Source: a virus. Taken from it: 29,016 nt of DNA. The position numbers were made by a program, and so were the translations under genes. Positions 7,331 to 27,254 of the stretch are shown here, piece after piece. The DNA lies in IMG/VR virus record IMGVR_UViG_3300034198_006096, positions 1-29,016 of that record; one strand, given 5' to 3'. Below the pieces are notes generated by a model. That model was given only the letters and a program-made list of their open reading frames with translations. It made no database searches and was not told the origin of the DNA. The number at the start of each line of letters is the position of its first letter. Position 1 is the stretch's first letter.

Positions 7331-8290
7331 ATGAGCGATCTAATTGCATTTCCCGACAGCTTCGGTGCCGTTGCGCACCGCGACGCGGGTTCCTTCCAAG
7401 ACGACTTAGCAGCTGGGTTGTCCAGCAGCTTTGGTGTCCTATCCATACAGGGCAAGGTGTTTCGTATCCGCTACGGCGGCAACGAGACACCATTAGTTGA
7501 CGCGCGTAAAAATCCATTACCACAGCTTGACGTTGTTATTGTCGGCGCATCCCCCCATGTGTCGCGTACATACTACGAGGGTGGCTTTGAGGCTAACGCT
7601 GGCCGCGCGCCGACTTGCTCGTCATCAGACGGCAAAGTGCCTGACGCCCGTGTCGAAAACCCACCGGCTCGGTCATGTCTGGCGTGCCCGTACGCCGTTC
7701 GTGACCAAGTTACGCCAACTAACGCTAAAGTCTCCAAGTGCGCCAATAACAAGCGCATCGCCATTGTCCCCCTTGGCGATCTGGAGAACGAACAGTTCGG
7801 TGGGCCTATGCTGCTGCGCATCCCCGGCGGTTCACTAAAGAGCCTGACCAATTATGCGCAGGCCCTGAAGTCAAAACGCTTTCATAGCTACGAAGTGGCT
7901 ACGACATTGCAGTTTGATTTCGCAGTTGCACATCCACGACTTGTGTTTTCTCCACTGCGTCCGCTTACACCCGACGAGCAGCATGTCATCAACGATATGC
8001 GCGCTGGTGGCCAGTTGAACTCAGTGTTGGCGACATCTGACATGGAGCATGGGGAGGGTTCGCAACGTCAACCTGTTAACGCTGATGTTGCAGCGCAGAA
8101 CGCAATGGATGCTTTTCCAGTAAAAATGGAGCACGCACAACCTGCGTCACCTGTCAAGGTAACTCCGAAAAATAAAGTTACACGTCCTGTGAAATCTCAG
8201 ATTGCTGAGGCAGTGAATGATCCTGTAACAATCACGCCGCCGCAATCATTCGAAGCCGACTTAGACGCGAAACTAAAAGGTCTGATGTAG
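7331..8290 (+). CDS. conserved phage protein with Cys4 motif; candidate ssDNA-binding protein, 319 aa
   Basis: Residues 1-210 look like a beta-rich globular domain with a Cys4 insertion (C96, then C116 and C119 as C-L-A-C, then C137), suitable for a zinc site. From about 225 the sequence becomes a Pro/Ala/Gln-rich disordered linker, ending in a short conserved-looking tail, SFEADLDAKLKGLM. A zinc motif set into a beta barrel plus a flexible tail with an acidic-aromatic tip is the plan of T4 gp32-like proteins, and no other SSB candidate is visible among otherwise complete replication genes. This is inference from architecture only. A terminator follows directly. Confidence 0.65.
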   Translation: MSDLIAFPDSFGAVAHRDAGSFQDDLAAGLSSSFGVLSIQGKVFRIRYGGNETPLVDARKNPLPQLDVVIVGASPHVSRTYYEGGFEANAGRAPTCSSSDGKVPDARVENPPARSCLACPYAVRDQVTPTNAKVSKCANNKRIAIVPLGDLENEQFGGPMLLRIPGGSLKSLTNYAQALKSKRFHSYEVATTLQFDFAVAHPRLVFSPLRPLTPDEQHVINDMRAGGQLNSVLATSDMEHGEGSQRQPVNADVAAQNAMDAFPVKMEHAQPASPVKVTPKNKVTRPVKSQIAEAVNDPVTITPPQSFEADLDAKLKGLM

Positions 8291-8298
8291 TAGCTACT

Positions 8299-8329
8299 GC
8301 GGGAGGTTAACGCCTCCCGCTTATTTTTT
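8299..8329 (+). terminator. rho-independent terminator after the candidate SSB gene
   Basis: GCGGGAGG (8299-8306) pairs with CCTCCCGC (8313-8320) across a 6-nt loop and is followed by TTATTTTTT. It is a strong terminator just before the primase-helicase gene. Confidence 0.85.
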
Positions 8330-8342
8330 GCTGGGGGGATTA

Positions 8343-11255: not shown

Positions 11256-11530
11256 GTATTAGAGATCATTCCCGCCTTCTTGTTGCGTGGGAATGATCTA
11301 TTTTCACGTTGAGACGTTATTCGTACATTCTTCAACGTGTTAGAGCCGCCTTTGACAAGGGGCTTTTTATGATCGACTTCTTTCTTGGAGCCTTCTTCTA
11401 TGAGGCCAGCCTTGATAGCAGCACGACGTAGCCGATGGCGTTGGGCGTTACCGGAGTCCGACCCGGTTCCGTTTTCCCCGCGCTTTTTCTGCAACTCGTA
11501 CTCGCGTTTATAATCGCGTTTGTAAACCAT
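11252..11530 (-). CDS. small HNH-type nuclease, 92 aa
   Basis: The C-terminal half has VDHKKPLVKGGSNTLKNVRI and then a QREN segment: D53-H54, N64/N68 and N77 fit the beta-beta-alpha metal fold of HNH nucleases, with Asn in the last position. The N-terminal half is very basic (KRDYKREYELQKKR, HRLRRAAIK) and would contact DNA. ATG 11530 is chosen because it overlaps the stop of the 2447-aa gene (TGATG) and has GGAG upstream; a longer in-frame start at 11572 lies inside that gene. It could be a mobile homing-type nuclease or a packaging-associated HNH. It is the last gene of the late operon. Confidence 0.75.
   Translation of the reverse strand: MVYKRDYKREYELQKKRGENGTGSDSGNAQRHRLRRAAIKAGLIEEGSKKEVDHKKPLVKGGSNTLKNVRITSQRENRSFPRNKKAGMISNT
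11263..11304 (+). terminator. probable terminator of the rightward module, inside the HNH gene
   Basis: AGATCATTCCC (11263-11273) and GGGAATGATCT (11289-11299) form an exact 11-bp stem with a 15-nt loop, followed on the plus strand by ATTTTC. It lies 8 nt after the primase-helicase stop and within codons near the end of the leftward HNH gene. It could also stop leftward transcripts, although no U-run follows on that strand. Confidence 0.6.
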
Positions 11531-14500
11531 CAGTGCGCTCCAAATAATTGTTGGTTGCGTTTCAAAATCCATTTCTCATTAGGGTGCGGTGCTTGCCCCA
11601 GATGCGCGTCACGCTGCTTCTTCGTGTGCATCGCACGATAATCGTTAAGCTGCGACCGTGTAAGGCGCGCTTCATGCGGGCGGTCTTTATTCCACCGCTC
11701 AATTTCTCCCCACAAACGAGCCCGTTCATTACCGTCCTTGGCAGTGGCCCACTTCGTTTCAAACGAAGACCGCTCGGCCTGCTGCGCACGGGTCTCTTTG
11801 TAGTTGAGGTTTCTTTCTTCAGCCTCTCGCGCAACGCGTGTCGGTCTAAAACCAAGGCCCGTGGCTACAGCTTCTGTAGGCGACAACGTCTTATCAGACT
11901 TGTTGTAACCACGAGATGTCTTGTCTGCCTCCATGTACCCGCTGACACCCTTACGCACATCAGCGACGGCTTTGATCGGGATAGCGTCGAGCGCATGGGT
12001 TCCGGCCTCACTCCAAGAAGAACTATCACGGAGCCCAGCAAGCGCACGGGCGCTTTCGCCCAATGTGGAGCTGAACGCTCCACCCATTATCTTACCAATC
12101 CATTCGTCGATGCTGCTCTGCTTTGATGACTTAGGAACGTCAGGGAAAAGCATCTGCTGCATACCCAGACGCCCACTGAGGTCAATACCAGCTGCGCGAG
12201 ACGCACCATGAAGGATGACATCTACCGCCTCCGGCGACATACCCGCACCCTTTGTCAGCCAACCACGAACGGTGCCATCGACCCACTGATCCCAATCGTC
12301 GTTGCTGCCAGCAATTCCCATTGCTGCATTGTAAATGACCTTAAACGGTTCCACGGGTAAACCGGCAGCGCCTGCTGCGATTGCCTGAATAACGAGCAAA
12401 CCACCCAAGGCGCTGATAGCTTCAGGGTTGCCCTTGATAGCTTCGCCCATTTGAGAGCCAAGCAGCGTGTAAACTTTAGCGCCATACTTTTTAAACTGAA
12501 GCGCCGCGCCAAAGCTGTTATTGCTGAACAGCGGGCTAGAGTTCGTACGAGAGTAGTTACCCATCGTTTCGGTCACGACATCGTGCGCGTAGTCGAGAGC
12601 TTCCTTATGCGCATTAGCTGCGTCACCAAGTCTGGCTTTTTCTAACTTATAGGCTGCAACGCCAACCAGTGCGCGGTTGATAGTCTCGATGCCCAGCGTC
12701 ATCTGCCGAGACATGCGGTCCATTGTGTCAAGCGTGCGCTCCGCAAAGTTTCCTTCGCGGGTTGTTTCTTGCTTGAAGATATACTCGGCCTCTGGAGACA
12801 TAAGCCCGGTATCAACCATGTGGTCGATAACAGCGGCTAGGTTCTTGCCATCCTCGGCCTTTAGAAGATTATTTCTAATGGTAGCGATGTGATCCGTTGG
12901 CGTAGCATTAATATCTACCGCCTTGAACGTATCCTTAAACGCCCGACGGATAACTCCACCGCCGCCTAACGTACCGCCGATACCACCACCACCGCCAATG
13001 TCACGCAGCGTCGAGGCCATTGTCGCGTAAGACTGAACATGGCCGTGTTTGCCACCGATTGTCGTGCCGCCAAGTATCCAGGGCTCTGTCGCGTTTACGG
13101 CGTGGAAACTGACGCCAAATAATTTATCAAGCGCCGTCACTTGGAGCATACGGCGAACAATCGGGTTTGTTGCTGCGCTGCTCGTACTTTGAAGCAACCG
13201 TGACTTCAGTTCGTCGTAGAGTTCTTTGCGCTCGGTGTTACCCGTAAAGTCTTTGATGTCATCCAAGCGCTGGCTTACTTTATCCAATGCCTCTTGGACG
13301 GCTGGCATATGCTCCGCTGTCGCCATGTCACGGCTGGCACGGTCAAAATAACTAGCGATAGCGCGGGTGTAATCCTCATCCGCACCGCGTATTTTCTCCG
13401 CATGGAGTAAATTCTGACGGATGCTTGTCTTGCTTGCGCGCATCCGTGCAACGGTTTCACCGATTGTTTTAAGGATGGCTTCCTGTTCATCCTGGGGCTT
13501 ACGCTGAAACTCCGCTTGCTTACGCAAACGGTCGCGCAGCGCGTCCATACGAGGAATAAGCGGAGCGGACTCCGGGGATATAAAATCTGGATGCGTGTTA
13601 GCGAACGGCTCACTAACCTCAGAGTACATTGGGCGACCATTAATGGTCTCACCCTTTAATTTATTCTGGAGCGTAAAGCCCTCTGTCGAGCCATAGACCT
13701 TACCAGAATATTTAGTCTTGAGCGGAACACGGTAAACCTCGGGGCTCTCGCGGTCTAGCTCTAATGGCTTCGCAGCGTCATCGACATTGAACTTACCCAT
13801 CTCGACCGAGCCGATGTCGTGGCCGTGGTCTTTAACGGCGCTGTCGATAAACTTCTCGACGCGAGACTTAAACGCAGTCTGAGTTTCACCTTCATTGCGG
13901 GTGAACTCTACGTAGCCGTCCTTGTCGAGGCGACCGCCCTCACCGACATCATAAATAGCTCGCTTGGCTGAGACCCAGTGCGTGCCCTCGCGCTGGAGCG
14001 GAGCATAAGTGCCAGCTTCTTTTTTGAATTTATCCCGAATGGCTCCGAGCCATTGCAAACTCTCGTCACTCTCAGAATTAATGACGCCATCCCAATCATC
14101 GGGAAGATCAAGAGCCTTCTTATCCCGATCTGTCAGTGCGCCGCCGGGAGCTTTATCATCTTCGTAGAAGCGTCGAGCAAGACCCTCTAGGTCACCAAAC
14201 TTTACGCCGGAAAGACGCAACGCCTCATGTAGTTTCGATACAGCAGTTTCAGTGTGATACTTGTTAACAGTATCCCTGACGCGCTTCATCCCGTTCCAAA
14301 GCTGCTCGTTATCTTTAAATTTAGCGAGGCGTTCTTTATTTTTTTCAAGCCAAGCGACACCGGCACGGTTTTCAATGCCCGTATCAAACTGCTCACGACC
14401 GCGCTCGATGTCCACGCCAAAGTGGCGCGCATCATACATGAGATCCGCAGCGTCCTTGAACGCTTCACCGTGAACGCGCTGGAGTTCTACACCGAGCTTC

Positions 14501-17500
14501 AGGGCTTTCTCACCGCCAAGCTGACGCATATATTCTAGCTGCTTACCGTGAATTGCTTCTCGCGCCGTAGCCGCATCTCTTGCAATACGACCGTCAGCGC
14601 CCATACGTTTATCAAGACTTTTAGCTACGTCATGTGTAGCCAAGAATTTACGCTTGGCCGCGCCGAGATACTCCCCGATTTTACTCCGGCGCAACCACCC
14701 ATCATTAACTGGCGGGGGCGGGTCGATCTTTCTTGGTGCCGCTGGCGCGCGTGGTGGTTTTGGCGGCATACCTGTGCCGCCGCCCTGCATCTGCACAGCG
14801 CGTTCAGACAAACCAAGCGCAGCTTCAAGCGCCGTCATAGACTTTGATGGCAGGCCAAAGGCACGGCGCAGCCGATCCATAATAGCCCCATACACGGTAG
14901 CACGGTGCCAATCTCTGAGCCCTATGCGTTTAGCAACGTCAGGCGGCAGCGTGACGCTTTTAAGCGCCGTACGGAACTCCGGGTTACCGTGAAACTCTGC
15001 AATAAATTCCAGAGCGTTCTTTAGGCCATAGTGCTGCTGTCTTGGGGTAAACTCTTTCGGCTTACCTCTCACTAACTTGGTAATGCTGGGGAGTTCTTTT
15101 GCAACAAAAGTCCGTACAGCGTCGATGTCTCTCTGAAGACGGGGATTATTTTTAATAGCTTCTACCGTGGCGGCGTGAGCTACTTCATGTAAAACTACAT
15201 GGGGCGTCAGCATAGCGCCGGGATGAATAAAAACCTCACCCGTTGGACGATGGAAAAATCCATTCATCACACCGTCGGGGTGTGTATCCTTTAAAAATTT
15301 TGTATTTCTCTCTGTGGCAGCGAGGATATGTATTTTAGTGTCGCCAGCAACATCAAGCATTCGCTTGGTCACCAGCGGCATAAACACACGGTCTAGCGGG
15401 TTCGCGGCGCGCAGGCGTGAAAATAGCGTCTTTGGATTGATAACATCTCTGGCGGTTACCGTCCGCGATACATCTAAATCTTTACCAAAAACATTTTTGA
15501 CCGTGTGACCGGCAGCGGCAGCGTCAATCTTCTCAGCCGTCTTAGGTGTAAGCGTAGCATTTTTATCGACATGCGCCAGGAACTCATTCTCTGACAGGTC
15601 GTCGACCATGTCACCGCGAGGGCGTTTCTTTTCAGCCTTTGCTTCGGTGACGCCGAGGCGCTCGGCTTCTTTAGAAGCCTTGACCGCTTCGTTGCGCGCT
15701 GCTTGCTGCTTCTCGAACTCTGGGTTCAAATATTTAGCGGCGGCTTCTTTTTTCAGACGAGCAATACGTTCGGCTGGAGTTTCCTCTCCAGCTGGCTCCT
15801 CAACCTTGGGCTCAGGCTTTGGCTCTGGTTTAGGTTCTGGTTTAGGTTCTGGCTTGGGCTCTGGTTTAGGTTCTGGCTTGGGCTCTGGTTTAGTAGCAGC
15901 CTCAGAAACCGGCTTAGTAGGGCGAGGTCTAACGGGAGCAGGAGGCTCCTCGGTCACGGCACCACGACGCTCAAGTTCCTGCTTGAGCATAAGAGCTTCT
16001 TCTGGGTTCAGATTAGTGTCGGCAAGATTATCTAGTCCACCCTCGGAAGCGTGCTTACTTGCTGCGTAATTATTTCCTTCACTAATGCGGTCCGCCTGAA
16101 CCTCGGAGTTCATCTTTGTGAGGTCGCCACCGTGCAATCTGTTGTGGCGGTCGAGGAAGTTCATCACCCCCTCGTCGTTGATCTTATTTACCGGGCGGCG
16201 GGCAATGCGGCGGGCTTCAGCGATAAGCTGCATCGCTGCATTAGGCGACATGTCGTCACCGATGTTTTCGGCAAGGCTCTCAGGAATAAACGCGTGCTTT
16301 TTGAAATCGCCCTTATTCTTGGCGGTGTTGGTTTGATGCTTCGCGTAGGCTTCAGCAATTTTTTTATCTTTGTTTAGCTCGGCGTTATGCGCCGCAAGCC
16401 GAGAATTAACCTCGTCCAGCATCGCGCCTAATTTTTTGTGAAGGTTTTTAACGCCTTCTTTATTTGTAACGGCAGCGGTGATGTCTGCGTCTGTTAGTTT
16501 ATGCTTGGCGACGATTTCAGCTGCGATGTTGTTGCTGGCCTTGCGCGCGGCAATTTCAGCCTTGTCACGGTTACCCGGTTTTCTGGCCTCAACGCTGCGT
16601 GATATTTTAGTCGGACGATCCCGAGTGCCGTAGTCTGGATGATCCACCGGCTTACCATCACGGATAAGCTCAGAAGTCCCCATGCGAGACTGATTGTGCT
16701 TCTGACGCGTATAAGCTGCTTCTTTACCAACAGCTTCAGCTACCTGCGTCAGGGCTTGGTCTGACGGAACTTTGTCCTCAACATTGATCTCGTTGATGCC
16801 ATCCCAGAAACCGGCTGGTTCTTGCGTATCATTTATGTTGTGTGGAGTGCGCTCAAATGGCTGACCCTGACGAACGGCGTCGCGCTCGCGGAGTGCGGCA
16901 CCTGTGGGTGGCACATCCGCTTCTGGCAGAACGCCACGGCGGGCTTCGTCAGCATATTTTACTCGGTTAAGCGTATCTTCTAGCTTTACAGGTTTACCTG
17001 TCGGGGTAACCGGGTCGGCCTGACGATCTGCCAGCACCTGCTCAATCGGTTCGATGCGGACGGTCTGCTCTGGAGCTTTGACAGCTTCCATAGCCGCTTT
17101 TTGATCTGGGAGCGTATCCGCAGTACCTGCTGATGCCTCAACTTCAGTTCCTTCGGGTGTGCGCGTGACAGCCGCACCGACAGGTTCACCCTGTGCAGCG
17201 GCAGCGGCTACGTCCGCTTTTGACGCAACAGCGTGCGCCGGGTTCATCAAACCAGAAATTGAACCGTCTTTATGCGCCTCGCGGATGGCTTTGGTTGTAA
17301 GCCCTGCGTCTTTGGCGACATCATAGGTCATGCTACCTTTGCCGCGCCCAAGACTAACAACAACGCGCTTGGAGCCTTCAGCTACGGGAGGAATTTCTGT
17401 CCCTGGCGGGTAGCCGATAACAGGCTTGCGGCCTTCGGTCTGCGCCTCTTGTTGCGCAGCAACCGTCTCTGGCTTTTCAGGAATATTCTGGCCAGCGTCG

Positions 17501-18873
17501 ATAGGGCCAGCTTCTGGTGCAGGAGCCGCTGTGGGGGCGGGAGGTAACTCAGCCCATGACGTAATTGGCGGCAATCTCTTTTCACCAGTTACGGGATTGC
17601 CTCCCATAACAGGCTGACCGCCAGATTGTGGCGGTGGTGGCGGATTAGCCCCTGCGGTAACAGGGTTGTTGACCGCGTCAGTTATTTGGCTCTTACCGGC
17701 TGGTGGTGGCGGATTAGCCCCTGCGGTAACTGTGCGTTCGGTAGGCTGAATAGCCTGCGGATTAGAAGCGTTAAGCGCCGCCGTCTGTGCAGGATCGACA
17801 CCCGTAGTATTTACTACAGGAGCCGCCGCTGGCTTACCACCAAGATACTTACGGCCCGCGCCAATCGCGTGGGGAGCGCCAGCAAAGACGCCACCTCCAA
17901 AGCCTGAATTTACGCCAGCGGTAGCAAGCTGGCCCATATCTGGCGTGAACGAAGCGGTGCCGGTCGCGTCCTTTTGAACAGCTTGAGATTTCTGAGAGGC
18001 GTAATCAGAAGCAACGCCACCGACAGCGTTAGCGGCAGCGTTCTCACCAATCTCGCGCAGGGCAGACTTCTCTGCTTCAGTTGCGGCTTTCTCACCGACC
18101 TTCTCGACAGCGCCAGTAAGTGCGCCCGTGCCTGACTTAATCGCGCTACCCGTGACCTTACCAATGACTGCGCCAAGCGCACCTTCGGTAAGAAGCTGCG
18201 GCGTTGTGTAGAGTTCATTACGAAACTGCACGCGAGCAGCGTAAGGGTCGGGTGTAGCCTTTAATATTTCAGCAAAACGAGGACTAGCAGCAGCGAGCTC
18301 CGCGTCCGTCATCTCGTTTGTCTTACCAACTGCGGCTTGCAGTGAACCAGATACTTGGTCAGCCGCACCCATTGGGATAGCCAATTCTGGCGCGAGAACA
18401 TACGGCGCAACGCCGGGAGCCATCTGCGCTGTCTTGATAACAGCAGTATCAATCGGGTTATTCCAAGCCTGCGTCAAAACGCCCGACTGACCTTCACCGG
18501 GTATGAGCGCAGCGTCGGCAATAGCTCTGCCGCCTTCAGTCAGGTGAGTTCGCGCAGCGTCAGCGTTGCGTTGCGAGTTTACCGCCATGTGACGGAATGT
18601 GTCCGACGCGCCTTCCCAACCAATGGCGTCAGCGCCACGCTGGCCTAATGTAGCTATACGAGCGCCAACATCACCGGCACCGGCAAGTCCTGCGTATCCA
18701 TAATCACTAAACGACGCGCCATCCGTGGACGCCGGTTTAACGGTCTCACCATGAGCCTGCGAATATAGATCATCGTAATTTAACGATGTAGTCGTATCCG
18801 CTGCGGGCGCGTCGGGTGCCGCCGTGCTACCGCTGAACGCCTGCTGGTAAAGATCGTCGTAATTGTCAGACAC
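11530..18873 (-). CDS. giant internal virion protein with metallopeptidase motif and LPD/PLxRFG-type C-terminus, 2447 aa
   Basis: This is a probable DNA-ejection protein carried in the capsid. The N-terminus has two copies of a short motif, NYDDLYQQAF (4-13) and NYDDLYSQAH (32-41). A long Ala/Pro-rich region with Gly-rich helices follows, then a KPEP repeat at 995-1022. A zinc metallopeptidase motif HEVAH sits at 1229-1233 (VVLHEVAHAAT). The C-terminal third resembles the large polyvalent proteins of phages: SSPLFSNNSFGAALQFKKY near 2100-2125 is like the PLxRFG/LPD38 signature, followed by a hydrophobic segment near 2150-2170 that could insert into a membrane. The start is GTG 18873, directly after the previous stop, with GGGGGAG upstream. 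Confidence 0.85.
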   Translation of the reverse strand: MSDNYDDLYQQAFSGSTAAPDAPAADTTTSLNYDDLYSQAHGETVKPASTDGASFSDYGYAGLAGAGDVGARIATLGQRGADAIGWEGASDTFRHMAVNSQRNADAARTHLTEGGRAIADAALIPGEGQSGVLTQAWNNPIDTAVIKTAQMAPGVAPYVLAPELAIPMGAADQVSGSLQAAVGKTNEMTDAELAAASPRFAEILKATPDPYAARVQFRNELYTTPQLLTEGALGAVIGKVTGSAIKSGTGALTGAVEKVGEKAATEAEKSALREIGENAAANAVGGVASDYASQKSQAVQKDATGTASFTPDMGQLATAGVNSGFGGGVFAGAPHAIGAGRKYLGGKPAAAPVVNTTGVDPAQTAALNASNPQAIQPTERTVTAGANPPPPAGKSQITDAVNNPVTAGANPPPPPQSGGQPVMGGNPVTGEKRLPPITSWAELPPAPTAAPAPEAGPIDAGQNIPEKPETVAAQQEAQTEGRKPVIGYPPGTEIPPVAEGSKRVVVSLGRGKGSMTYDVAKDAGLTTKAIREAHKDGSISGLMNPAHAVASKADVAAAAAQGEPVGAAVTRTPEGTEVEASAGTADTLPDQKAAMEAVKAPEQTVRIEPIEQVLADRQADPVTPTGKPVKLEDTLNRVKYADEARRGVLPEADVPPTGAALRERDAVRQGQPFERTPHNINDTQEPAGFWDGINEINVEDKVPSDQALTQVAEAVGKEAAYTRQKHNQSRMGTSELIRDGKPVDHPDYGTRDRPTKISRSVEARKPGNRDKAEIAARKASNNIAAEIVAKHKLTDADITAAVTNKEGVKNLHKKLGAMLDEVNSRLAAHNAELNKDKKIAEAYAKHQTNTAKNKGDFKKHAFIPESLAENIGDDMSPNAAMQLIAEARRIARRPVNKINDEGVMNFLDRHNRLHGGDLTKMNSEVQADRISEGNNYAASKHASEGGLDNLADTNLNPEEALMLKQELERRGAVTEEPPAPVRPRPTKPVSEAATKPEPKPEPKPEPKPEPKPEPKPEPKPEPKVEEPAGEETPAERIARLKKEAAAKYLNPEFEKQQAARNEAVKASKEAERLGVTEAKAEKKRPRGDMVDDLSENEFLAHVDKNATLTPKTAEKIDAAAAGHTVKNVFGKDLDVSRTVTARDVINPKTLFSRLRAANPLDRVFMPLVTKRMLDVAGDTKIHILAATERNTKFLKDTHPDGVMNGFFHRPTGEVFIHPGAMLTPHVVLHEVAHAATVEAIKNNPRLQRDIDAVRTFVAKELPSITKLVRGKPKEFTPRQQHYGLKNALEFIAEFHGNPEFRTALKSVTLPPDVAKRIGLRDWHRATVYGAIMDRLRRAFGLPSKSMTALEAALGLSERAVQMQGGGTGMPPKPPRAPAAPRKIDPPPPVNDGWLRRSKIGEYLGAAKRKFLATHDVAKSLDKRMGADGRIARDAATAREAIHGKQLEYMRQLGGEKALKLGVELQRVHGEAFKDAADLMYDARHFGVDIERGREQFDTGIENRAGVAWLEKNKERLAKFKDNEQLWNGMKRVRDTVNKYHTETAVSKLHEALRLSGVKFGDLEGLARRFYEDDKAPGGALTDRDKKALDLPDDWDGVINSESDESLQWLGAIRDKFKKEAGTYAPLQREGTHWVSAKRAIYDVGEGGRLDKDGYVEFTRNEGETQTAFKSRVEKFIDSAVKDHGHDIGSVEMGKFNVDDAAKPLELDRESPEVYRVPLKTKYSGKVYGSTEGFTLQNKLKGETINGRPMYSEVSEPFANTHPDFISPESAPLIPRMDALRDRLRKQAEFQRKPQDEQEAILKTIGETVARMRASKTSIRQNLLHAEKIRGADEDYTRAIASYFDRASRDMATAEHMPAVQEALDKVSQRLDDIKDFTGNTERKELYDELKSRLLQSTSSAATNPIVRRMLQVTALDKLFGVSFHAVNATEPWILGGTTIGGKHGHVQSYATMASTLRDIGGGGGIGGTLGGGGVIRRAFKDTFKAVDINATPTDHIATIRNNLLKAEDGKNLAAVIDHMVDTGLMSPEAEYIFKQETTREGNFAERTLDTMDRMSRQMTLGIETINRALVGVAAYKLEKARLGDAANAHKEALDYAHDVVTETMGNYSRTNSSPLFSNNSFGAALQFKKYGAKVYTLLGSQMGEAIKGNPEAISALGGLLVIQAIAAGAAGLPVEPFKVIYNAAMGIAGSNDDWDQWVDGTVRGWLTKGAGMSPEAVDVILHGASRAAGIDLSGRLGMQQMLFPDVPKSSKQSSIDEWIGKIMGGAFSSTLGESARALAGLRDSSSWSEAGTHALDAIPIKAVADVRKGVSGYMEADKTSRGYNKSDKTLSPTEAVATGLGFRPTRVAREAEERNLNYKETRAQQAERSSFETKWATAKDGNERARLWGEIERWNKDRPHEARLTRSQLNDYRAMHTKKQRDAHLGQAPHPNEKWILKRNQQLFGAH
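15808..15891 (-). repeat. seven KPEP codon repeats inside the 2447-aa gene
   Basis: Exactly seven K-P-E-P units (84 bp, 12 bp each) encode residues 995-1022 in the leftward frame. Synonymous codon differences between units show alternating 24-bp sub-repeats. The segment would form a stiff, extended charged rod or periplasm-spanning spacer, as in TonB-like proteins, between the N-terminal region and the metallopeptidase part. Confidence 0.9.
17633..17730 (-). repeat. 29-bp direct repeat pair inside the 2447-aa gene
   Basis: The same 29 bp occur at 17633-17661 and 17702-17730, 69 bp apart. They encode two copies of VTAGANPPPP in a Pro-rich linker. An in-frame 69-bp duplication is the simplest origin, and the region may vary in copy number between relatives. 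Confidence 0.85.
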
Positions 18874-21800
18874 TTATTGTCTCCCCCAAGTACCTGTAGC
18901 GGGTGCTGGAGTTGCGGCTGGTATAGGTGAGTTACCTGTAGGCGCGCTCGGTAAAATTATTTCCCTGCCATCTGGTAACTTATAAACGGTCTTACCGTCT
19001 TTCTGAACTGATGTGCCTTTATTAGCAAGTACAGCGGTGGCGCTTTTTACAGCATCAGCCGGTGCCATGCCTGGATTATTGTGAAGAATATTCGTTGCCG
19101 TTGTTGAAATATTAGACACCCGTGGGTCGGCGGGGTCTAAGTCGGGGAACATATTTGTCACCGCGCCATTGACGGCTTTATCATAACCGCCAGTGGATAC
19201 CTTGTTATTATCTTGGTGATCGAAGGTACGTTTCTGTTGGTCTTGTTGGAACTGCTGACCATCTTCGCGGCTTGTATCTTGATGCGTAAAGCCAGCCTGT
19301 TGGCGACCAGAATTCATGATATTTGTGTATTGCGTCGTCCATGCAGCGCGTTCTTCAGCAACACCCTTACGAACTTGGTCTTGGTGCTCTTTCGACATCT
19401 GCGAGAAATTACCCGGCAGCGTCGGCATTGGGCCAAGATAATTAATCGCCCTCTTATGCAGCGCATACTCAGGCGAATTATCTTCCGGCGGTGTAATCGC
19501 TGTAGGCTGACGCTGCTGGTATTGTTCATACGCGGGATCTGGCTGCGAAATATTGAGCTTGGTGCCACCTTGTGCAGCTGATGTCAGCGACTGCCAGTAT
19601 GCAGATCCGTCCTTCAAACCAAGTGCAGCGCCGAGTAGCTGTTGCTCAGTCACACGAACTTTCTGGATAACTTCGCCACTAGCGTCTTTGTGCGTGACAA
19701 TAGCGCCGCCATCTTCCGTTGGCTTGGCGCTGACGTTGGTGCCGTCAGGGATATTCTGCTGCGCTTTAGTCAGTGCGGTCACAGCGCCTTCCGTGTCACC
19801 CTTTTTCAAGAGCTCCACGGCTTGGTCGCCATAGCGCGATACAAGCATTTGCTGATGGAAAATAATCGACCGTGCGACTTCTTGTGCGCCCTTTGTGTCA
19901 CCTTGCGCTAAGAGATGCTCGTAACCGGCAACAAGGCCAGCCGTCGTGCGTATACCTTCCGTGAGCTTATAGTTTGGATCGACAGCGTTGCTGAGTGCAG
20001 CAACCTGTTCAGGTGTCGCTGCTTCTTTCTCAGGGCCGAGACCGAGCATGTTCCCAAACGCCGTAATGAGATCATCGCCGCCGCTACCGTCTGTCGGTAC
20101 CGCTTGACCTTGCTGCGCATTGCGACGCGTGCCTGCGGCGTGGATGCCGTAGTCTTGCTCCACACCGTTGATGGCGTTCGTGAGCGCACCGGCAAGCATT
20201 TCTTTGAAATTCTTAGGCTGCTTTGTTTTGGCAGCGATGCGTCTATGTTCAGCGTATTTTTCTAAATCAGCTTGGCGCTTGGCTTCCTGACTGCTTGGAC
20301 CAACAATAGGCGCTTCGTCAAACCCGCCTTCTGGAATGGCTGGCGTGACCGAAGCTGGAGGTGCTTCCTGCGGGGCGGTGGGCTCGGCTCTCGCTACCTG
20401 CGTCGGTGCCGCTTCCTCCGATGGTGCCTGCGGTGCGTCTCCTCCCGAGAGGAAATTACTGAAGGGGTCGTCGTCGACGGGGCCACCAAGAGCGTAGCCG
20501 GGGGAGATTGCAAGCCGCGCTGAGTACCCACCACCGGGGTTTGTATTACGGGAGCCAGTTGCTGGGCTAACGCCGGGTTGCGCCGATGCGACACGGTCGG
20601 GGCGACCTGTGTTTTCTTTAGTAACAAGTCCGCCTTTAGCAAACCCGGGTACCGGGCCACCGTTGGCGAAGCCTCCAAAGAAGCTGCCCAACGCACTACC
20701 AATAGCGTCGAAACCGCCGCCAAAATCAGAATTACCGCCAGCATTACTTTGTGCAGAAGTTGCTCCAGCGGCGTCAGTTCCACTTGTATCATTTAGATTA
20801 TCTGGGTTGCTGAACAGCGACGACAGCCAATCCATAGAACCGGCGTCTTGCTGTGCGGGTTGTTGCGGGGTAGCAGCCGTGGGTGGAGGCGGGTTAGCTG
20901 CGGCGGTATCTGGGACAGCCTTCGGTGTCTCAGGAGGCATAGGCGGGCCTTGCTCATGCGGCATAGGCGGGCCCATGTTTGGATGAAACGACATCGGATC
21001 TTGAACGTCTTTTGCAGCAATATACAACTTGTCGTCGTTAGGGGCCGTACGTAATACGTCTGGCGTCTCATCTGGATAAATCGTCGGGATGCCGTCGCCG
21101 TTTGGATCTGTGGGCGTACTGGCAGCGCCAGCTGCTGGGCCACCATCTACGCGAGGTATCGCGGTATCTTGCTGGGCAGCAGGATTATCTTTTGTGGCGT
21201 TCTGCCAACTTAATTGCTGCTGCTCAAACTGACTTGCGCGGCCTGCATCCTGCGGCATACCAAGCACAGCTGTTCCTTGCGGTAACGAATGACCATCACG
21301 ACGATGGCCCATTGCACCCGTCTCGCTGCGCATACGATTTTCCCAATGGCCGGGATCAGTCCACTGTCCACCCGTGTAAGGAGTAGACGGAATATCCCCG
21401 CCATAGACGCCCGGCTTAACGGGCTGTGGCGTTCCTTGGTTCAGCGCAGGATTTGGGCCAAAACTTTCAGGACGCGTTGGCGGCGTTGGCGCATCGACGC
21501 GGGGATTTGGTATGCTGGCAGCGCCAGCTGTTGGGCCACGGTCAATAGATGGGATGGCCTCGGGACGAGACGGCGGCAACGGCACACCGCTCGTATCTGG
21601 TTTGGCTGGGTTATTACGCGCGTTCTCGGCTTTACCGGGATCATTCCAGCGCGTATCATCCGTACGGATATTGTTTTTACCCTTTGCCATATCATCACCG
21701 TTCCATGTATCTACGAAGCTGCGTGCATTGGCAGGCAACCCAGCGGTATTCTCTCTAATTGAAGCAGCCGATGGGATAGCTTCTCTATTTATTTTGAGTT

Positions 21801-23046
21801 CTTTGTTCGCTAAATCAGCCGTAATAACTTGGTGCCCAGAGCCATCAGCGGATGGCATAGAAACTTTACCGGCACCATCAGTGTAGGCCGTCTTCGCGTC
21901 AGGAAACGCTGTGACGCTCGCACCATTTTTATCGACATGGAGGTACGCTTTGCCGTTCTCTTTAAGAACCTGCATCACGTCCTGTTTAAACTGCGGCCAC
22001 TTATCACCAGCGACAGAGATACAGCCCTGCGTAATTAATCTATCGTTTGTCGCGGAATGAAATTCAATGCCACGGCGGTAATCGCCAATATTTTTATCAT
22101 AGATAGCGTTGTGGTTAATACCGATTGCGCCATGCGCCTGACCCCAAGCACCCATTTCATTAGGTGTGATCGGATAATGCCCTTCTGGGATAGCGCCGCG
22201 ACCTGCGCCACCAGAACCAAACTCATACGTGTGACCGTTTACGGCGATGTTTGATCTTATTTGTCCCGGTGCCGCTTCCCCAACAGGCGCAGACGGTGTC
22301 GCTGATGCGAAGCTATTATTGGAGTAAGAACTCCATAGACTGTCGCCGTTCTTCTGGCGAAGTTCAACTTGATGATCTGCGTTGGCTGGAACTTCGTAGG
22401 ATCGCGTCCAGATGCTATTCCCGTCCTGAACCGTGCGACCTTGCAGCAACCCTTCGAGCACATGCTTATGGGTCGTGTCCAACTCATGACCCAGATACTT
22501 AACTTGTGTTTCTAACGGAATTTTATTGATGTCGTTGGTGCCAGCAAACTTATAGAGGCCGTCAAGGCGCTCTTTATGCCACTGCGCGATACCACCCGAT
22601 GGTGAACCGTTATCATTAGGATTATACGCGGCAGGATTTAACCGTGACCCGCTTTCACCCATTAGCGAACCAACCGCACCCGCCGCCACTTCAGGGCGAA
22701 CGCCACGATTGATTAGCTCGTCCATAATCATTTTATGCGCTTGCGTAGCGCCGCCGCCTGTAGAACCACCCGCCGAAGGAGCGGCAGGGTTTATTACCGC
22801 TTTACTCGGATCAAATCCGTCACGCCCGGCTTGAATTGCTTTTTCTAACGCCGATGTCGTGTCACTCTTGCCTTTACCAGAACTGCCACCAGACTTTTTA
22901 CCGCCACCGGCACCGCCATCTTTACCACCGCCACCGGCACCGTCTTCATGACTTTGCCGAGCGCGTGCAGCCGCCTCCGCTGCACCCTTTGCGGTTAGTT
23001 CAATATAGGATTGGCCTTGATCTTCAGCGTTGCGTGGTAGCGCCAT
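18874..23046 (-). CDS. virion protein with lysozyme and L,D-transpeptidase-fold domains, 1390 aa
   Basis: After a Gly/Lys-rich disordered start (1-95), residues 103-225 match the phage tail lysozyme family (Phage_lysozyme2): VAAGAVGSLMGESGSRLNP, with E131 as likely catalytic acid, then SGGIAQWHKERL. Residues 265-371 look like a DUF2778/Tlde1-type L,D-transpeptidase fold: IPEGHYPIT, then GIEFHSATNDRLITQGCIS with H330 and nucleophile C342. The rest is a long Pro/Gly-rich tail with FANGG/FAKGG motifs and a helical region (about 1000-1200). It likely opens peptidoglycan during DNA injection. The ATG at 23046 has GAGGTGAG upstream. It lies between two other virion genes. Confidence 0.85.
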   Translation of the reverse strand: MALPRNAEDQGQSYIELTAKGAAEAAARARQSHEDGAGGGGKDGGAGGGKKSGGSSGKGKSDTTSALEKAIQAGRDGFDPSKAVINPAAPSAGGSTGGGATQAHKMIMDELINRGVRPEVAAGAVGSLMGESGSRLNPAAYNPNDNGSPSGGIAQWHKERLDGLYKFAGTNDINKIPLETQVKYLGHELDTTHKHVLEGLLQGRTVQDGNSIWTRSYEVPANADHQVELRQKNGDSLWSSYSNNSFASATPSAPVGEAAPGQIRSNIAVNGHTYEFGSGGAGRGAIPEGHYPITPNEMGAWGQAHGAIGINHNAIYDKNIGDYRRGIEFHSATNDRLITQGCISVAGDKWPQFKQDVMQVLKENGKAYLHVDKNGASVTAFPDAKTAYTDGAGKVSMPSADGSGHQVITADLANKELKINREAIPSAASIRENTAGLPANARSFVDTWNGDDMAKGKNNIRTDDTRWNDPGKAENARNNPAKPDTSGVPLPPSRPEAIPSIDRGPTAGAASIPNPRVDAPTPPTRPESFGPNPALNQGTPQPVKPGVYGGDIPSTPYTGGQWTDPGHWENRMRSETGAMGHRRDGHSLPQGTAVLGMPQDAGRASQFEQQQLSWQNATKDNPAAQQDTAIPRVDGGPAAGAASTPTDPNGDGIPTIYPDETPDVLRTAPNDDKLYIAAKDVQDPMSFHPNMGPPMPHEQGPPMPPETPKAVPDTAAANPPPPTAATPQQPAQQDAGSMDWLSSLFSNPDNLNDTSGTDAAGATSAQSNAGGNSDFGGGFDAIGSALGSFFGGFANGGPVPGFAKGGLVTKENTGRPDRVASAQPGVSPATGSRNTNPGGGYSARLAISPGYALGGPVDDDPFSNFLSGGDAPQAPSEEAAPTQVARAEPTAPQEAPPASVTPAIPEGGFDEAPIVGPSSQEAKRQADLEKYAEHRRIAAKTKQPKNFKEMLAGALTNAINGVEQDYGIHAAGTRRNAQQGQAVPTDGSGGDDLITAFGNMLGLGPEKEAATPEQVAALSNAVDPNYKLTEGIRTTAGLVAGYEHLLAQGDTKGAQEVARSIIFHQQMLVSRYGDQAVELLKKGDTEGAVTALTKAQQNIPDGTNVSAKPTEDGGAIVTHKDASGEVIQKVRVTEQQLLGAALGLKDGSAYWQSLTSAAQGGTKLNISQPDPAYEQYQQRQPTAITPPEDNSPEYALHKRAINYLGPMPTLPGNFSQMSKEHQDQVRKGVAEERAAWTTQYTNIMNSGRQQAGFTHQDTSREDGQQFQQDQQKRTFDHQDNNKVSTGGYDKAVNGAVTNMFPDLDPADPRVSNISTTATNILHNNPGMAPADAVKSATAVLANKGTSVQKDGKTVYKLPDGREIILPSAPTGNSPIPAATPAPATGTWGRQ

Positions 23047-23054
23047 TACTCACC

Positions 23055-24212
23055 TCAAGCAGGAATGGCGCTACGGCCTGACTTCGATACAAATTGCGGA
23101 GGGCCGGGGAGCGGCGGCTGCATTGACGGTCTTGTCTCCGTCGTTGCTTCAACTTGTGCGCGCTCTTGTTTGGCCTTGTCGATCATTGAATAAACTTGCT
23201 TCTCACCGAGCCACTTAACCGCGTCGGCGGGGATTACGAATTCACCCGGACTTAATCGAGCATTAACGTCATCGGGGATAGCGCCCTTAGATGGGCTGGC
23301 TTCGTGTGGGACATGCCCGCCTTCTTGCGCCATACCGGCACCAGCAATAGGTGCATCGCTTGGGGGCATACCGTCTTCAGGAATAGCGCCACCTTCATTG
23401 AGCGACATAATAGACCCAAGCATACCCTGTATGCCCTGCATACCGGCAGACGCAGACTGTGTGTTTGCCTGCTGCTGCTTAATGGCGTTGTTGGTATAGT
23501 TATTAAATGCTGTAATTGCGTTGCCCTGTGCTTGGTTGCCAGCGTTAAACCATGCCACAGGCGCAGTCATTGCGTTTGAACTGGTCTGGAAGAAGTTCGT
23601 CAGGCCACCAACGCCCGCAGCGCCAGCCGAAGAACCAACACCCGTCGTCTGATTAATATTATTTTGAAACCCTCGACCTGTATTCACAACGCCCGATTTA
23701 AGCGCCATGCCCTGCATTTGAGTATCGTCAATGGCTTTTGTGCCAGCCGCTGCCTGCGCCGATGCCTGTTGCGTACGCGAGGCTAAGTCGAGCGCACCAT
23801 ACCGTGTGCTGCTCGGGTCAATACCGAAACTTTCTAATTGCTGAGAAGCAGCCTGCCGGGCTTGCTCAAATTGGCTGGCGACCATCGCCTGCGCTTTACC
23901 AGCATTGGCCTGTTGGCGCTCTGGCGTATCCCAAGTGGACGCCTCACGGGCGAATGAAGTTTCGATAGGTTTATAAGTATCATTATATTGGTCCCACTGA
24001 GCGCGAGACATGTCCGATTGAAAATGCTGGTCAGCAACCTGTTGTTTGGTGCTGTCAAGAATATAGGGTTCATACTTGGCGTAGACTTCTTTGGACCATT
24101 TTAATTGTTCCATACCAAGCTGATATTGCTTTTCCGCAGCCATCATAGCTGCGAAGCCCATCATCTCATTGTTGCCGTTCCCGTTGGAACCACCGCCACC
24201 TTTACCGCCCAT
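23055..24212 (-). CDS. internal virion / ejection-type structural protein, 385 aa
   Basis: A Gly/Asn-rich start (1-16) is followed by a long helical region (20-150) rich in Gln, Ala and charged residues, with YEPYILDSTKQQVADQHF and a helix around ESFGIDPSSTRYG. This layout is frequent in podophage ejection proteins. A Gly/Asn-rich, partly hydrophobic centre follows. Near the C-terminus ARLSPGEFVIPADAVKWLG (318-336) matches a motif seen in several phage structural proteins whose exact role is unclear. The start is the second of two close ATGs, with GGAG 8 nt upstream. The neighbours are the GNAT gene and the giant lysozyme gene. Confidence 0.75.
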   Translation of the reverse strand: MGGKGGGGSNGNGNNEMMGFAAMMAAEKQYQLGMEQLKWSKEVYAKYEPYILDSTKQQVADQHFQSDMSRAQWDQYNDTYKPIETSFAREASTWDTPERQQANAGKAQAMVASQFEQARQAASQQLESFGIDPSSTRYGALDLASRTQQASAQAAAGTKAIDDTQMQGMALKSGVVNTGRGFQNNINQTTGVGSSAGAAGVGGLTNFFQTSSNAMTAPVAWFNAGNQAQGNAITAFNNYTNNAIKQQQANTQSASAGMQGIQGMLGSIMSLNEGGAIPEDGMPPSDAPIAGAGMAQEGGHVPHEASPSKGAIPDDVNARLSPGEFVIPADAVKWLGEKQVYSMIDKAKQERAQVEATTETRPSMQPPLPGPPQFVSKSGRSAIPA

Positions 24213-24233: not shown

Positions 24234-24695
24234 TTACGCCGCGTGGGCGGCTGCGTGTTTATCTCTCAAACGGTCATACGCTCGCTTGTAAGCAGGGCCT
24301 AAAAACCGGCAATCTTCGCGGCGAAGCGTAAGCACTTGGGCCGCGCCAGTGGGAAAGTACTCATCTATCACAAATTCAGGCTTAAAACCAAAATTAAGGT
24401 CAAATTGCAGGGCCTCTAAATTATGCACCGAGACGATACCGATTACCCGTTTCACCTTAAGATGGTTAAAACAAAAGTCGCTCACAGCGTAGAGCCACGC
24501 CGGTTTACACCATCCCGTCGCAAAGCCAGCGACATGAGTATGAACAGACGCGCCGTTGTACCCGTCAAACAATGCGCCACCTGCCAATGCACCATCTGCA
24601 TCATGCCAGGAAATACACATAGCAAACGGCGTCAGCTGCGTCTCGGCAGCTTTTGCTATCGCTAGTGCGGCCAGTTTGTCATCAAATTGGATCAA
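24234..24695 (-). CDS. GNAT-family acetyltransferase, 153 aa
   Basis: The sequence follows the GNAT fold: a first helix (KLAALAIAKAAE), beta 2-3 with FAMCISWHDADGALAGGALF, a central beta strand with GASVHTHVAG, the acetyl-CoA region with helix KPAWLYAVSDFCFNHL, then KRVIGIVSVHNLEALQF and a final strand with GAAQVLTLRRED. The usual Q/R-x-x-G-x-G/A loop is not clear, as in many phage members. GNAT proteins occur in the late modules of some podophages; the substrate is unknown. The start is a TTG that overlaps the previous stop (TTGA); a later ATG would lose the first helix. Confidence 0.75.
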   Translation of the reverse strand: MIQFDDKLAALAIAKAAETQLTPFAMCISWHDADGALAGGALFDGYNGASVHTHVAGFATGWCKPAWLYAVSDFCFNHLKVKRVIGIVSVHNLEALQFDLNFGFKPEFVIDEYFPTGAAQVLTLRREDCRFLGPAYKRAYDRLRDKHAAAHAA

Positions 24696-24901
24696 GGGTG
24701 CGCTTTCCTGTAAGCATCAAAATCTGCCTTAAGGGCTTCATACTCTTCTTTGCGGCAAAATATTTGATGATTAAGTGAGCCCGCGCCGTTGGCAGCAATA
24801 ATATCCATTGCGTGCATGAGAGCGCGAACAGTAAGTGACAGACTTTCTATAGTCGCAGCAGGCTCTGGGATAGGTGGGATACGCGGTTTGTAATCAGCCA
24901 C
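24692..24901 (-). CDS. hypothetical small late protein, 69 aa
   Basis: I do not recognise this protein. It has a Pro-rich start (RIPPIPEPAA, 6-16), a helix (18-37, ATIESLSLTVRALMHAMDII) and a charged C-terminal helix (KEEYEALKADFDAYRKAH). The start is GTG 24901, with AAGGAA about 8 nt upstream, and the gene overlaps the end of the 786-aa gene by 8 nt. The tight overlap on both sides supports a real gene. A small tail or chaperone-like protein is possible. Confidence 0.6.
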   Translation of the reverse strand: MADYKPRIPPIPEPAATIESLSLTVRALMHAMDIIAANGAGSLNHQIFCRKEEYEALKADFDAYRKAHP

Positions 24902-27254
24902 GGGCGAGTTCCTTTACAGACGTAGCAAGCTGAATATTTGTTACGATCACCATACCCTCTAATTCAAGTTGCCACTGATCTGCTTTAAACCCACTTGGTA
25001 GCATAACGAGTTCGCCGGACTCTCTGATCTCTCTTGTGAAGACAACGCGATCATCGGCGCGTAACCGCAACAAAAGAAGCATGGTGTCAGGATTAAAATA
25101 GACGTTTAGATGGTCTTCTTTGTTGGGAAAGGAGCGGTGCGGGACAGGGCCAGGGAAGAACGGGCCATGTTGCATATACTCGGTTTGAACTTGGAAAAAT
25201 ACTTTACAGGCCATAAAGGCTTGCTTGTAGGGGAACTGAAATACTTTTGACTGCCACAGCCAAGGTCTGAAGAAAATACCCTCTGGCGGGTCCCAATGCC
25301 AAATTTTTCCACCAGACAAAACAAAGTTTTCACCAGTAAATTCGTCTTGGAAAATATGCTGAACGAGCCCGTCAAACTTCATACGCGTATAGCTTGTGTT
25401 GGCGACAGGCCCACCAATGATGCAACCATTATCCATCTGGTCAGCGTGTGGCACAAACTGCGAATGAAGGCCGTCAAGATAGACACCATCGCTAGGCTCA
25501 CTACTGCCGGAGCCAGGACCAACCGCGCCATCGTAGTAATCTTCATCTGACGGCAACGAACCGTCAGAACCCGGATCAATAGATCCGTCATAGACCTCGC
25601 CAGCAATTAATACGCCGCGCTGAACGAAGGCCAAATACGCCCCAGGCACGCGCACAGCCATCAATAAATGCGGCTGGAGTGCAATCCATTCCTGTCGGGT
25701 AAATAATTGCTTGGTGATAATTTCCGCCGCGCCCATACCGTATTGTACGAGGACGAGCCCGTTCTGAGCAGCGTAATAGACGCCATCCTCTGTGCTCAAA
25801 ATAGAGCGCCGAGAAATGCAAGGCTCTTTAATTGCAAGCGCCGTCATCGCCATCGTGGATGGATGGATGCCCGTCACGACGGTGGGATTGCCCTTGGTGA
25901 GCACAACAAGGTTCTGCGCTGCGCGACCAAATCCAACAATCGGAAATGGTACCGCGATTGTATAGACACTTGGAAACGTGTGTGGGCGGTAAGGCTCAGA
26001 GAACCATATCTCGTGGTCGTCACGCCATGCCGCGATGATACCGTTTGGAAGAACAATCGCGCCTTGAAAATCACTCGGCGGCGTATTCCAGTTTGTTGAT
26101 GCAAGCTGCGTCGAGCCAGTTATTTTTTCATCTAATGTTGTATCAACAAATACTGTCGTCGTGGTTGGAACCTCGGTAACCATATAATAATTGGCACCAC
26201 CAGCGCCGTCAGCAATGGTTCGGTAAATGCGTTCATGCGTTATGTTGCGACTGTTTGTTATAGACCCGTCGGGGGGATCTACTGTTACCGTCCATACGTC
26301 ATGTGAATAACCAACAACGACAGTGGGCGGGCTCGGCGCGCTCTCCTCACCATACTCGGTAACGTAGGTGGTCACGTAAGCGCGTGTAACAAGAACGCCG
26401 CGCTTACTCTCAATAGAGACCAACGTCCACTGAGAAGCGGTCCAACCGGCGGATACAGCGATATTAGCTTTATAAAATTTACCGTTGTAAGCGACGAGGT
26501 CGCCAGCAGCGTAACTACTATCAGCGTTCCACGGTGGCGCATACGGAGCGGTTGTATCTTCAGTCCACTTCGTGGCGTCCCAAGCCTTTGTCGTAGTCGT
26601 GTTAGCTCGGAAAAATTGGCCCTTATAAGTGACCATATCTCCAGTAGTGTACGCCTTATCAGAAGAAAAATCTGGCGCTGTTGGCGGCGTCTCTTGGACT
26701 TCTACCCACTTTGATACGTCCCACGCGCCAGCGGCAACTTCTAGTATGGCTTTATAAACTCGACCACCATACGTCACGAAATCATCTTTGATGTATGACT
26801 TCGTGGAGCTAAATACTGCGGGGGCTTTTGCTGTCGCAACTACTTTAGGTGCTTTGTCAGGTGCCGGGACGCCTAAGAGAAAGTCAGGCTCACCAGCGAC
26901 TAACCTGTCGTATGTGTTGTATGTCGGGGGGATAGTTGGGCCGAAGAAATAATAGCGATGATATTTATCATCAACGATAGGCGACCGAAACACTTGCGTG
27001 TATTCGTCGTTTAACTCCAACCACAAGCTACCTTCCATACTATCTACTGGCTGGTATGGGTTAGGTACACGATAGATAGCGCGAGTATTGCGCACGTCTT
27101 CTATGTCGTGAATTGCTTCTGGTTTTCTAAAGCCACGGATGTCGCCGTGTGCAAGCCAAGCGTTCTGCGCGTATGCGGCATTTGTCTCAGGGAGAAGCGT
27201 ATTGGCGCGAAGGGGTATCATCCCCTTAAAATCTTGGAGTAGTATTGCCGCCAC
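24894..27254 (-). CDS. tail/virion protein with three carbohydrate-binding-like repeats, 786 aa
   Basis: Residues 1-130 resemble the opening of podophage structural proteins (DFKGMIPLRANTLLPETNA). Three tandem ~40-residue repeats follow at about 146-186, 196-233 and 242-279, each of the form Y-x-x-G/D-D-x-V-x-Y-x-G-x-x-Y/F-x-A ... W, like chitin-binding CBM5/12 modules. Next come fibronectin-like beta strands (AYVTTYVTEYGEESAPS) and a propeller-like region with WFSEPYRPH and ISRRSILSTEDG. An Asp/Ser/Gly-rich insert lies near 555-595. It is likely a tail or baseplate-like protein that touches surface glycans. The start is GTG 27254, one base after the previous stop, with GGGAGAG upstream. Confidence 0.75.
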   Translation of the reverse strand: MAAILLQDFKGMIPLRANTLLPETNAAYAQNAWLAHGDIRGFRKPEAIHDIEDVRNTRAIYRVPNPYQPVDSMEGSLWLELNDEYTQVFRSPIVDDKYHRYYFFGPTIPPTYNTYDRLVAGEPDFLLGVPAPDKAPKVVATAKAPAVFSSTKSYIKDDFVTYGGRVYKAILEVAAGAWDVSKWVEVQETPPTAPDFSSDKAYTTGDMVTYKGQFFRANTTTTKAWDATKWTEDTTAPYAPPWNADSSYAAGDLVAYNGKFYKANIAVSAGWTASQWTLVSIESKRGVLVTRAYVTTYVTEYGEESAPSPPTVVVGYSHDVWTVTVDPPDGSITNSRNITHERIYRTIADGAGGANYYMVTEVPTTTTVFVDTTLDEKITGSTQLASTNWNTPPSDFQGAIVLPNGIIAAWRDDHEIWFSEPYRPHTFPSVYTIAVPFPIVGFGRAAQNLVVLTKGNPTVVTGIHPSTMAMTALAIKEPCISRRSILSTEDGVYYAAQNGLVLVQYGMGAAEIITKQLFTRQEWIALQPHLLMAVRVPGAYLAFVQRGVLIAGEVYDGSIDPGSDGSLPSDEDYYDGAVGPGSGSSEPSDGVYLDGLHSQFVPHADQMDNGCIIGGPVANTSYTRMKFDGLVQHIFQDEFTGENFVLSGGKIWHWDPPEGIFFRPWLWQSKVFQFPYKQAFMACKVFFQVQTEYMQHGPFFPGPVPHRSFPNKEDHLNVYFNPDTMLLLLRLRADDRVVFTREIRESGELVMLPSGFKADQWQLELEGMVIVTNIQLATSVKELARG

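Follow-up and report, generated by a model that had tools for sequence, protein, structure and literature searches.

A putative phage ejection protein pairs a lysozyme domain with a predicted L,D-transpeptidase-fold cysteine domain that recurs beside different glycosidases

We analyzed a 29,016-base IMG/VR virus record, IMGVR_UViG_3300034198_006096 (the window, meaning this whole stretch), and found on its minus strand a 1390-amino-acid (aa) open reading frame (ORF; 18874..23046) for a two-domain putative ejection protein, in which a glycan-cutting lysozyme domain is followed by a cysteine (Cys) domain with a predicted YkuD/L,D-transpeptidase (LDT) fold. Its position is T7 gp15-like, judging from synteny and local homology with a 963-aa counterpart in Rhizobium phage RHph_TM3_14A. 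On balance, we consider it probable that the product is an ejected wall-opening tool acting on two bonds, cutting or trimming stem peptides beside the glycan cut as the DNA conduit assembles. The evidence behind this reading is computed and comprises the lysozyme family, the predicted LDT fold, an invariant His-Cys dyad, recurrence of the Cys domain with swapped glycosidases, and ejection-gene synteny. A near-identical stretch is present in IMGVR_UViG_3300032221_000187, which therefore gives no independent evidence.

The lysozyme domain (Phage_lysozyme2, PF18013; aa 104-238, 22333..22737, on the minus strand like every feature described below) is the sole Pfam domain over threshold in the ORF (E=1.7e-21), scoring 77.3 bits against a gathering cut-off of 28.2. 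Its presumed catalytic glutamate, E131 (codon 22654..22656), occupies an invariant column, being kept in all five aligned lysozyme relatives, L043 included (L numbers are our handles for loci). A sequence-only reading of the window had proposed a lysozyme-like domain with this glutamate, which the family match bears out; the residues E131, H330 and C342 and the string HSATNDRLITQGCIS are likewise present as it described them.

The Cys domain covers aa 259-377 (21916..22272; start approximately at residue 259), as delimited by a 19-sequence alignment, structure prediction and fold searches. Its presumed nucleophile, C342 (codon 22021..22023), is the single Cys among all 1390 residues, and the presumed catalytic histidine, H330 (codon 22057..22059), aligns with the motif His of Csd6. 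A DNA motif scan of IMG/VR for I-x-F-H-x8-T-x-G-C-I recovered two genuine homologs, about 51% identical, and profile scans brought the count to 18 homologous IMG/VR loci, the near-identical phage not included. Across the 19 homologous domains the His and the Cys are invariant, each domain contains exactly one Cys, and the position three residues before it (C-3) is always T or S; the invariant positions also include I-P-x-G-x-Y-P and Gly341. Some of these sequences are closely related (L129 and L130; the L128-L139 group), so that they represent fewer than 19 independent lineages. Given the sole Cys in 1390 residues and the invariance of both residues in 19 of 19 domains, the H330/C342 pair is far beyond chance. 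This conservation also bears on the idea that the domain is catalytically dead and holds the lysozyme in place by wall binding alone. It resembles wall-binding modules in being embedded in a longer protein and, in several relatives, in neighboring a catalytic domain that can be exchanged; however, a binding module would not need an invariant His and single Cys, and we regard this explanation as very improbable.

In this analysis, the Cys-domain family was found only in uncultured phages. The lone domain gave no phmmer match in the PDB and no tblastn match in cultured phages or plasmids, and two of its homologs searched against cultured phages also returned none. Two lone-domain matches at E<0.01 in 299 bacterial genomes were discarded, as about three would be expected by chance and no H...GC motif is present in their ORFs. 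Searching 398 genomes by profile yielded a single candidate, a 172-aa bacterial protein (E=1.2e-4; L142, 1381-1899), which is a distant version of the domain with a His-Cys spacing of 11.

An AlphaFold2 (AF2) run on the single sequence was unusable (predicted local distance difference test, pLDDT, 46.8), and the 19-sequence alignment was used instead, giving a model of the Cys domain with a mean pLDDT of 91.2 and a predicted template modeling score of 0.84. In the PDB, Foldseek ranks 1-11 are all LDT-fold enzymes, headed by Csd6, Bd1075 and DpaA (E 5.8e-3 to 2.0), without any other fold between them, and VIA-align listed LDTs in all of its 50 rows (Z 6.5-8.4). Foldseek on viral structures returned three small phage proteins (E 0.004-0.15). 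Additionally, the family profile retrieved from 177,635 PDB sequences only Csd6, Pgp2 and Tlde1a, all L,D-carboxypeptidases (E 0.075-0.32), and placed the family His and Cys on the motif His and Cys of each. The aligned Csd6 pair has a spacing of 16, the same as that of its catalytic residues His160 and Cys176 (PMC4599014). Taken together, the AF2 model, Foldseek, VIA-align, the PDB profile and the invariant residues strongly support a predicted LDT fold with a catalytic-type dyad. The sequence-only reading had expected a second domain with an L,D-transpeptidase-type Cys and would have been contradicted by a fold unlike that family; the prediction returned an LDT fold (pLDDT 91), with His and Cys aligned to those of Csd6, a characterized L,D-carboxypeptidase.

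The same matches bear on whether the domain is instead a transpeptidase or amino-acid exchanger, capping or re-cross-linking stems round the entry hole and thereby restricting lysis from without or closing the wall once the DNA has passed. The fold is common to transpeptidases, with YkuD and LdtMt1/2 at the top of the VIA-align list (Z 8.0-8.4), tied within 1 with carboxypeptidases; furthermore, Tlde1a performs both reactions (PMC9638812). However, the hydrolases Csd6, Bd1075, DpaA and Pgp2 come first in Foldseek and in sequence profiles, the motif is T-x-G-C and not S-H-G-C, and the Arg that many LD-transpeptidases carry two residues after the Cys (C+2; PMC10653827) is absent, being S344 here and K, A, S or V in the family. 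A transpeptidase or exchanger therefore appears unlikely to us.

Searched alone against Pfam, the Cys domain matched DUF5675 (PF18925; E=0.0023 and 0.0028) and Tlde1/DUF2778 (PF10908; E=0.0065), both below their cut-offs (18.2 bits against 26.7 and 18.2 bits against 30.1, respectively). Profile comparison with DUF5675 scored 35.7, compared with a maximum of 19.7 among 60 column-shuffles, whereas the DUF2778 set tested scored 18.3, not above its shuffled maximum of 19.4. DUF5675 is thus the nearest family of the Cys domain at the level of sequence profiles. The H330-C342 spacing is 12, and DUF5675 members, including several from phages, can show exactly this spacing; the members fetched are small ORFs of about 140-210 aa. 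The sequence-only reading had instead matched the spacing to DUF2778/Tlde1, and this part of it did not survive: the spacing is mostly 13-14 in the alphaproteobacterial DUF2778 members fetched and 10 in Tlde1a (H121/C131, PMC9638812). The Tlde1 motif, (S/T)HGCh (PMC9638812), reads T-Q-G-C-I here, with Gln in place of its His and Q, E, A or L at this position (C-2) across the family, and the conserved disulphides of Tlde1a are impossible in a protein with one Cys. We therefore rejected a Tlde1/DUF2778 identity on spacing, the missing SHGC His, the lack of disulphides and the score below cut-off. What the domain shares with Tlde1/DUF2778 is the predicted fold, a His...GC motif, a weak Pfam match and the presence of Tlde1a among the weak PDB profile matches.

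Other subfamily hallmarks do not fit either. The published YkuD spacing, H(S/G/D)X14-19C, differs from H-S-X10-C here and from the spacings of 10, 12 or 15 in the family; DUF5675 and Tlde1a also lie outside it. The Trp of the D-Ala pocket, found two residues before the His (H-2) in LD-carboxypeptidases (PMC10653827), is E328 in the ORF and M, E, Q or A in the family. Because Arg, Trp and spacing depart from the known patterns, we describe the Cys domain as a divergent YkuD-fold domain; its sequence does not reveal which bond it would act on, and it is only the nearest matches and the context that favor hydrolysis. Loss of both the carboxypeptidase Trp and the transpeptidase Arg also occurs in DpaA, which has Met and Ala at these positions (PMC10653827). 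DpaA is Foldseek rank 3, and Met stands at H-2 in 8 of 19 family members, with Glu in the ORF itself. The domain might accordingly act in a DpaA-like way on a non-standard L,D link, such as Lpp-type protein-peptidoglycan links or the 3-3 cross-links abundant in some hosts, and not on ordinary tetrapeptides. The likeness to DpaA is, however, one of fold only, and we consider such a specificity quite unlikely.

The Cys domain recurs with exchanged partners in a group of related phages. In L128, L131-L134, L136, L137 and L139 the domain is 80-95% identical, and the stretch that follows it falls into different types. It is followed by a PF18013 lysozyme in L134 (E=6.4e-24), by a transglycosylase in L131 (phrog_4067, E=4e-19; phiKZ gp144, E=7.5e-5), and by an endolysin-like domain in L128 (phrog_873, E=8e-14), to which L132 and L137 are more than 70% identical across this stretch. 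A fourth type, shared by L133, L136 and L139, has no glycosidase family assignment. Pfam detected no glycosidase in L128, L131 or L139, and those of L128 and L131 were recognized by PHROGs alone. Three distinct glycosidase families could thus be recognized as fusion partners of the Cys domain within this set of related phages. The gene directly upstream in L134 encodes a DNA ejection protein (phrog_4287). Beyond this group, the domain occurs in tape-measure-like proteins of L095, L126, L129, L138, L140 and L141; L095 and L126 have PHROG tail or tape-measure matches and candidate lysozyme-looking stretches, and L129 has only sub-threshold Pfam matches. In L127 it lies in a podovirus-like cassette with no recognized glycosidase. 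L125 carries it in a long protein (7929-10226) that also has no recognized glycosidase, at a locus with podovirus-like genes.

Within the window, the ORF belongs to a minus-strand cassette that runs from a phrog_511 internal virion protein (24894-27254) through an acyl-CoA N-acyltransferase (phrog_4470; 24234-24695), a 385-aa virion structural protein in a gp14-like position (phrog_8003, E=5.5e-61; 23055..24212) and the two-domain protein to a 2447-aa giant protein in a gp16-like position (phrog_37402, E=6.9e-82; 11530..18873). The ORF thereby lies between gp14-like and gp16-like genes, in the place of gp15. RHph_TM3_14A has the same gene order from the acyltransferase onward. Its 963-aa counterpart carries a PF18013 lysozyme domain (E=3.3e-14) and is homologous to aa 1009-1142 of the ORF over a further region, as compared by local BLASTP; a global MAFFT alignment misplaced the lysozyme domain. 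The C-terminal region of the ORF at aa 1007-1165 (19552..20028) is common to phrog_35176 and the Rhizobium phage protein, with a TPR_16 match in the latter. A direct search did not find the Cys domain in this counterpart. The C-terminus of the giant protein is 31% identical to a Rhizobium phage protein and has a relative in 26 IMG/VR records besides the near-identical phage, and PF18013 was over threshold in 3 of 31 records searched. Because nearly all phages sharing the cassette lack the Cys domain, this domain is an accessory module and is not essential to the cassette.

The cassette order is also similar to that of the Bcep22-like phage JC1, whose gp64, gp68 and gp69 hold similar positions and were detected in virions by mass spectrometry (PMC9144972). 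Given these similarly placed proteins, the synteny, the homologs and the DNA-ejection neighbor in L134, we infer that the ORF product is carried in the virion and ejected. The host is presumably Gram-negative, in view of the Rhizobium-phage relative and the ejection cassette.

Some neighboring genes have features of their own. The phrog_511 protein bears CBM_5_12 modules in three stretches (E=2e-16), which is unusual for an internal virion protein; this carbohydrate-binding family is known for chitin binding. The acyltransferase, located inside the ejection cassette, is kept at the same place in RHph_TM3_14A and in Ochrobactrum phage POI1126. The giant protein has an HExxH-type metallopeptidase-like motif, VVLHEVAHAATVEA, with no Pfam match, and its Rhizobium phage counterpart shows HTMWHEATHAATLRQ at a similar place.

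As we envisage the wall-opening reaction, a podovirus virion protein in a T7 gp15-like position would be ejected, and its muramidase-type domain (E131) would cut the glycan strand. If catalytically active, the Cys342-His330 dyad of the YkuD-fold domain would attack the stem at the L-center carbonyl of its third residue, meso-diaminopimelate; enzymes of this fold act on bonds of that class. Net hydrolysis of the L,D-carboxypeptidase or L,D-endopeptidase type would be expected, releasing a stem or cross-link while the periplasmic DNA conduit assembles. Several observations weigh against this proposal. The E-values of the PDB sequence matches (0.075-0.32) and of the best Foldseek match (5.8e-3) are modest, and among the examined phage records that share the cassette, only the near-identical one has the Cys domain. 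L125, L127 and several tape-measure-like homologs have no recognized glycosidase in the same protein. Furthermore, the domain has neither Trp at H-2 nor Arg at C+2 and may thus have a different substrate. More broadly, there is a small chance that phage LDT-fold enzymes edit the wall at the entry site, by capping, exchanging or re-cross-linking stems or by cutting 3-3 or protein-wall links beyond the reach of lysozymes, and would in this way control how large the entry hole becomes and how long it lasts. What stands of the sequence-only reading is the ORF with its residues, its lysozyme domain and its His/Cys domain, hence two domains of peptidoglycan-active type with an LDT-type Cys; its spacing match and its assignment to Tlde1/DUF2778 do not.

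The tail-tip protein gp13 of phage phi29, which infects a Gram-positive host, has a peptidase of the M23 family and not an LDT-fold Cys domain. It is likewise two-domain, with lysozyme-like and endopeptidase domains in one virion protein (PMC9863714). Two-domain virion lysins are thus already known from phi29 gp13, and YkuD domains are known, as a rare component, in phage lytic proteins: the portion of the PhaLP paper drawn on here has 10 YkuD/LDT table entries and contains no description of ejection proteins whose glycosidases are swapped (PMC8310338). The T7 gp14-gp15-gp16 and the SP6/Bcep22-like ejectosomes have a similar cassette order. In T7, according to the relevant part of PMC8954989, the ejected gp16 has a single transglycosylase domain, and the wall hydrolase can shift to the gp15 homolog; that part gives the T7 and SP6/Bcep22-like ejectosomes one glycosidase each and makes no mention of an LDT-fold Cys domain. 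Unlike in T7, the gp15-position protein here adds such a domain. Csd6 of H. pylori, Pgp2 of C. jejuni and Bd1075 of B. bacteriovorus resemble it in predicted fold, with the His and the T-x-G-C motif aligned. They are, however, cellular periplasmic enzymes with the D-Ala-pocket Trp at H-2 that the phage domain lacks, the Csd6-type His-Cys spacing is 16 compared with 12, and the profile matches have no glycosidase fusion.

A recent review attributes just one catalytic domain to the entry enzymes (virion lysins) of Gram-negative phages (PMC9863714); in contrast, the ORF and several relatives pair two chemistries. If the Cys domain is active, some phages would open peptide links as well as glycan for DNA passage, and these proteins would be compact, testable wall enzymes. 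With the Cys domain nearly constant and the glycosidases beside it exchanged, one can directly test which wall bonds have to be cut for DNA injection.

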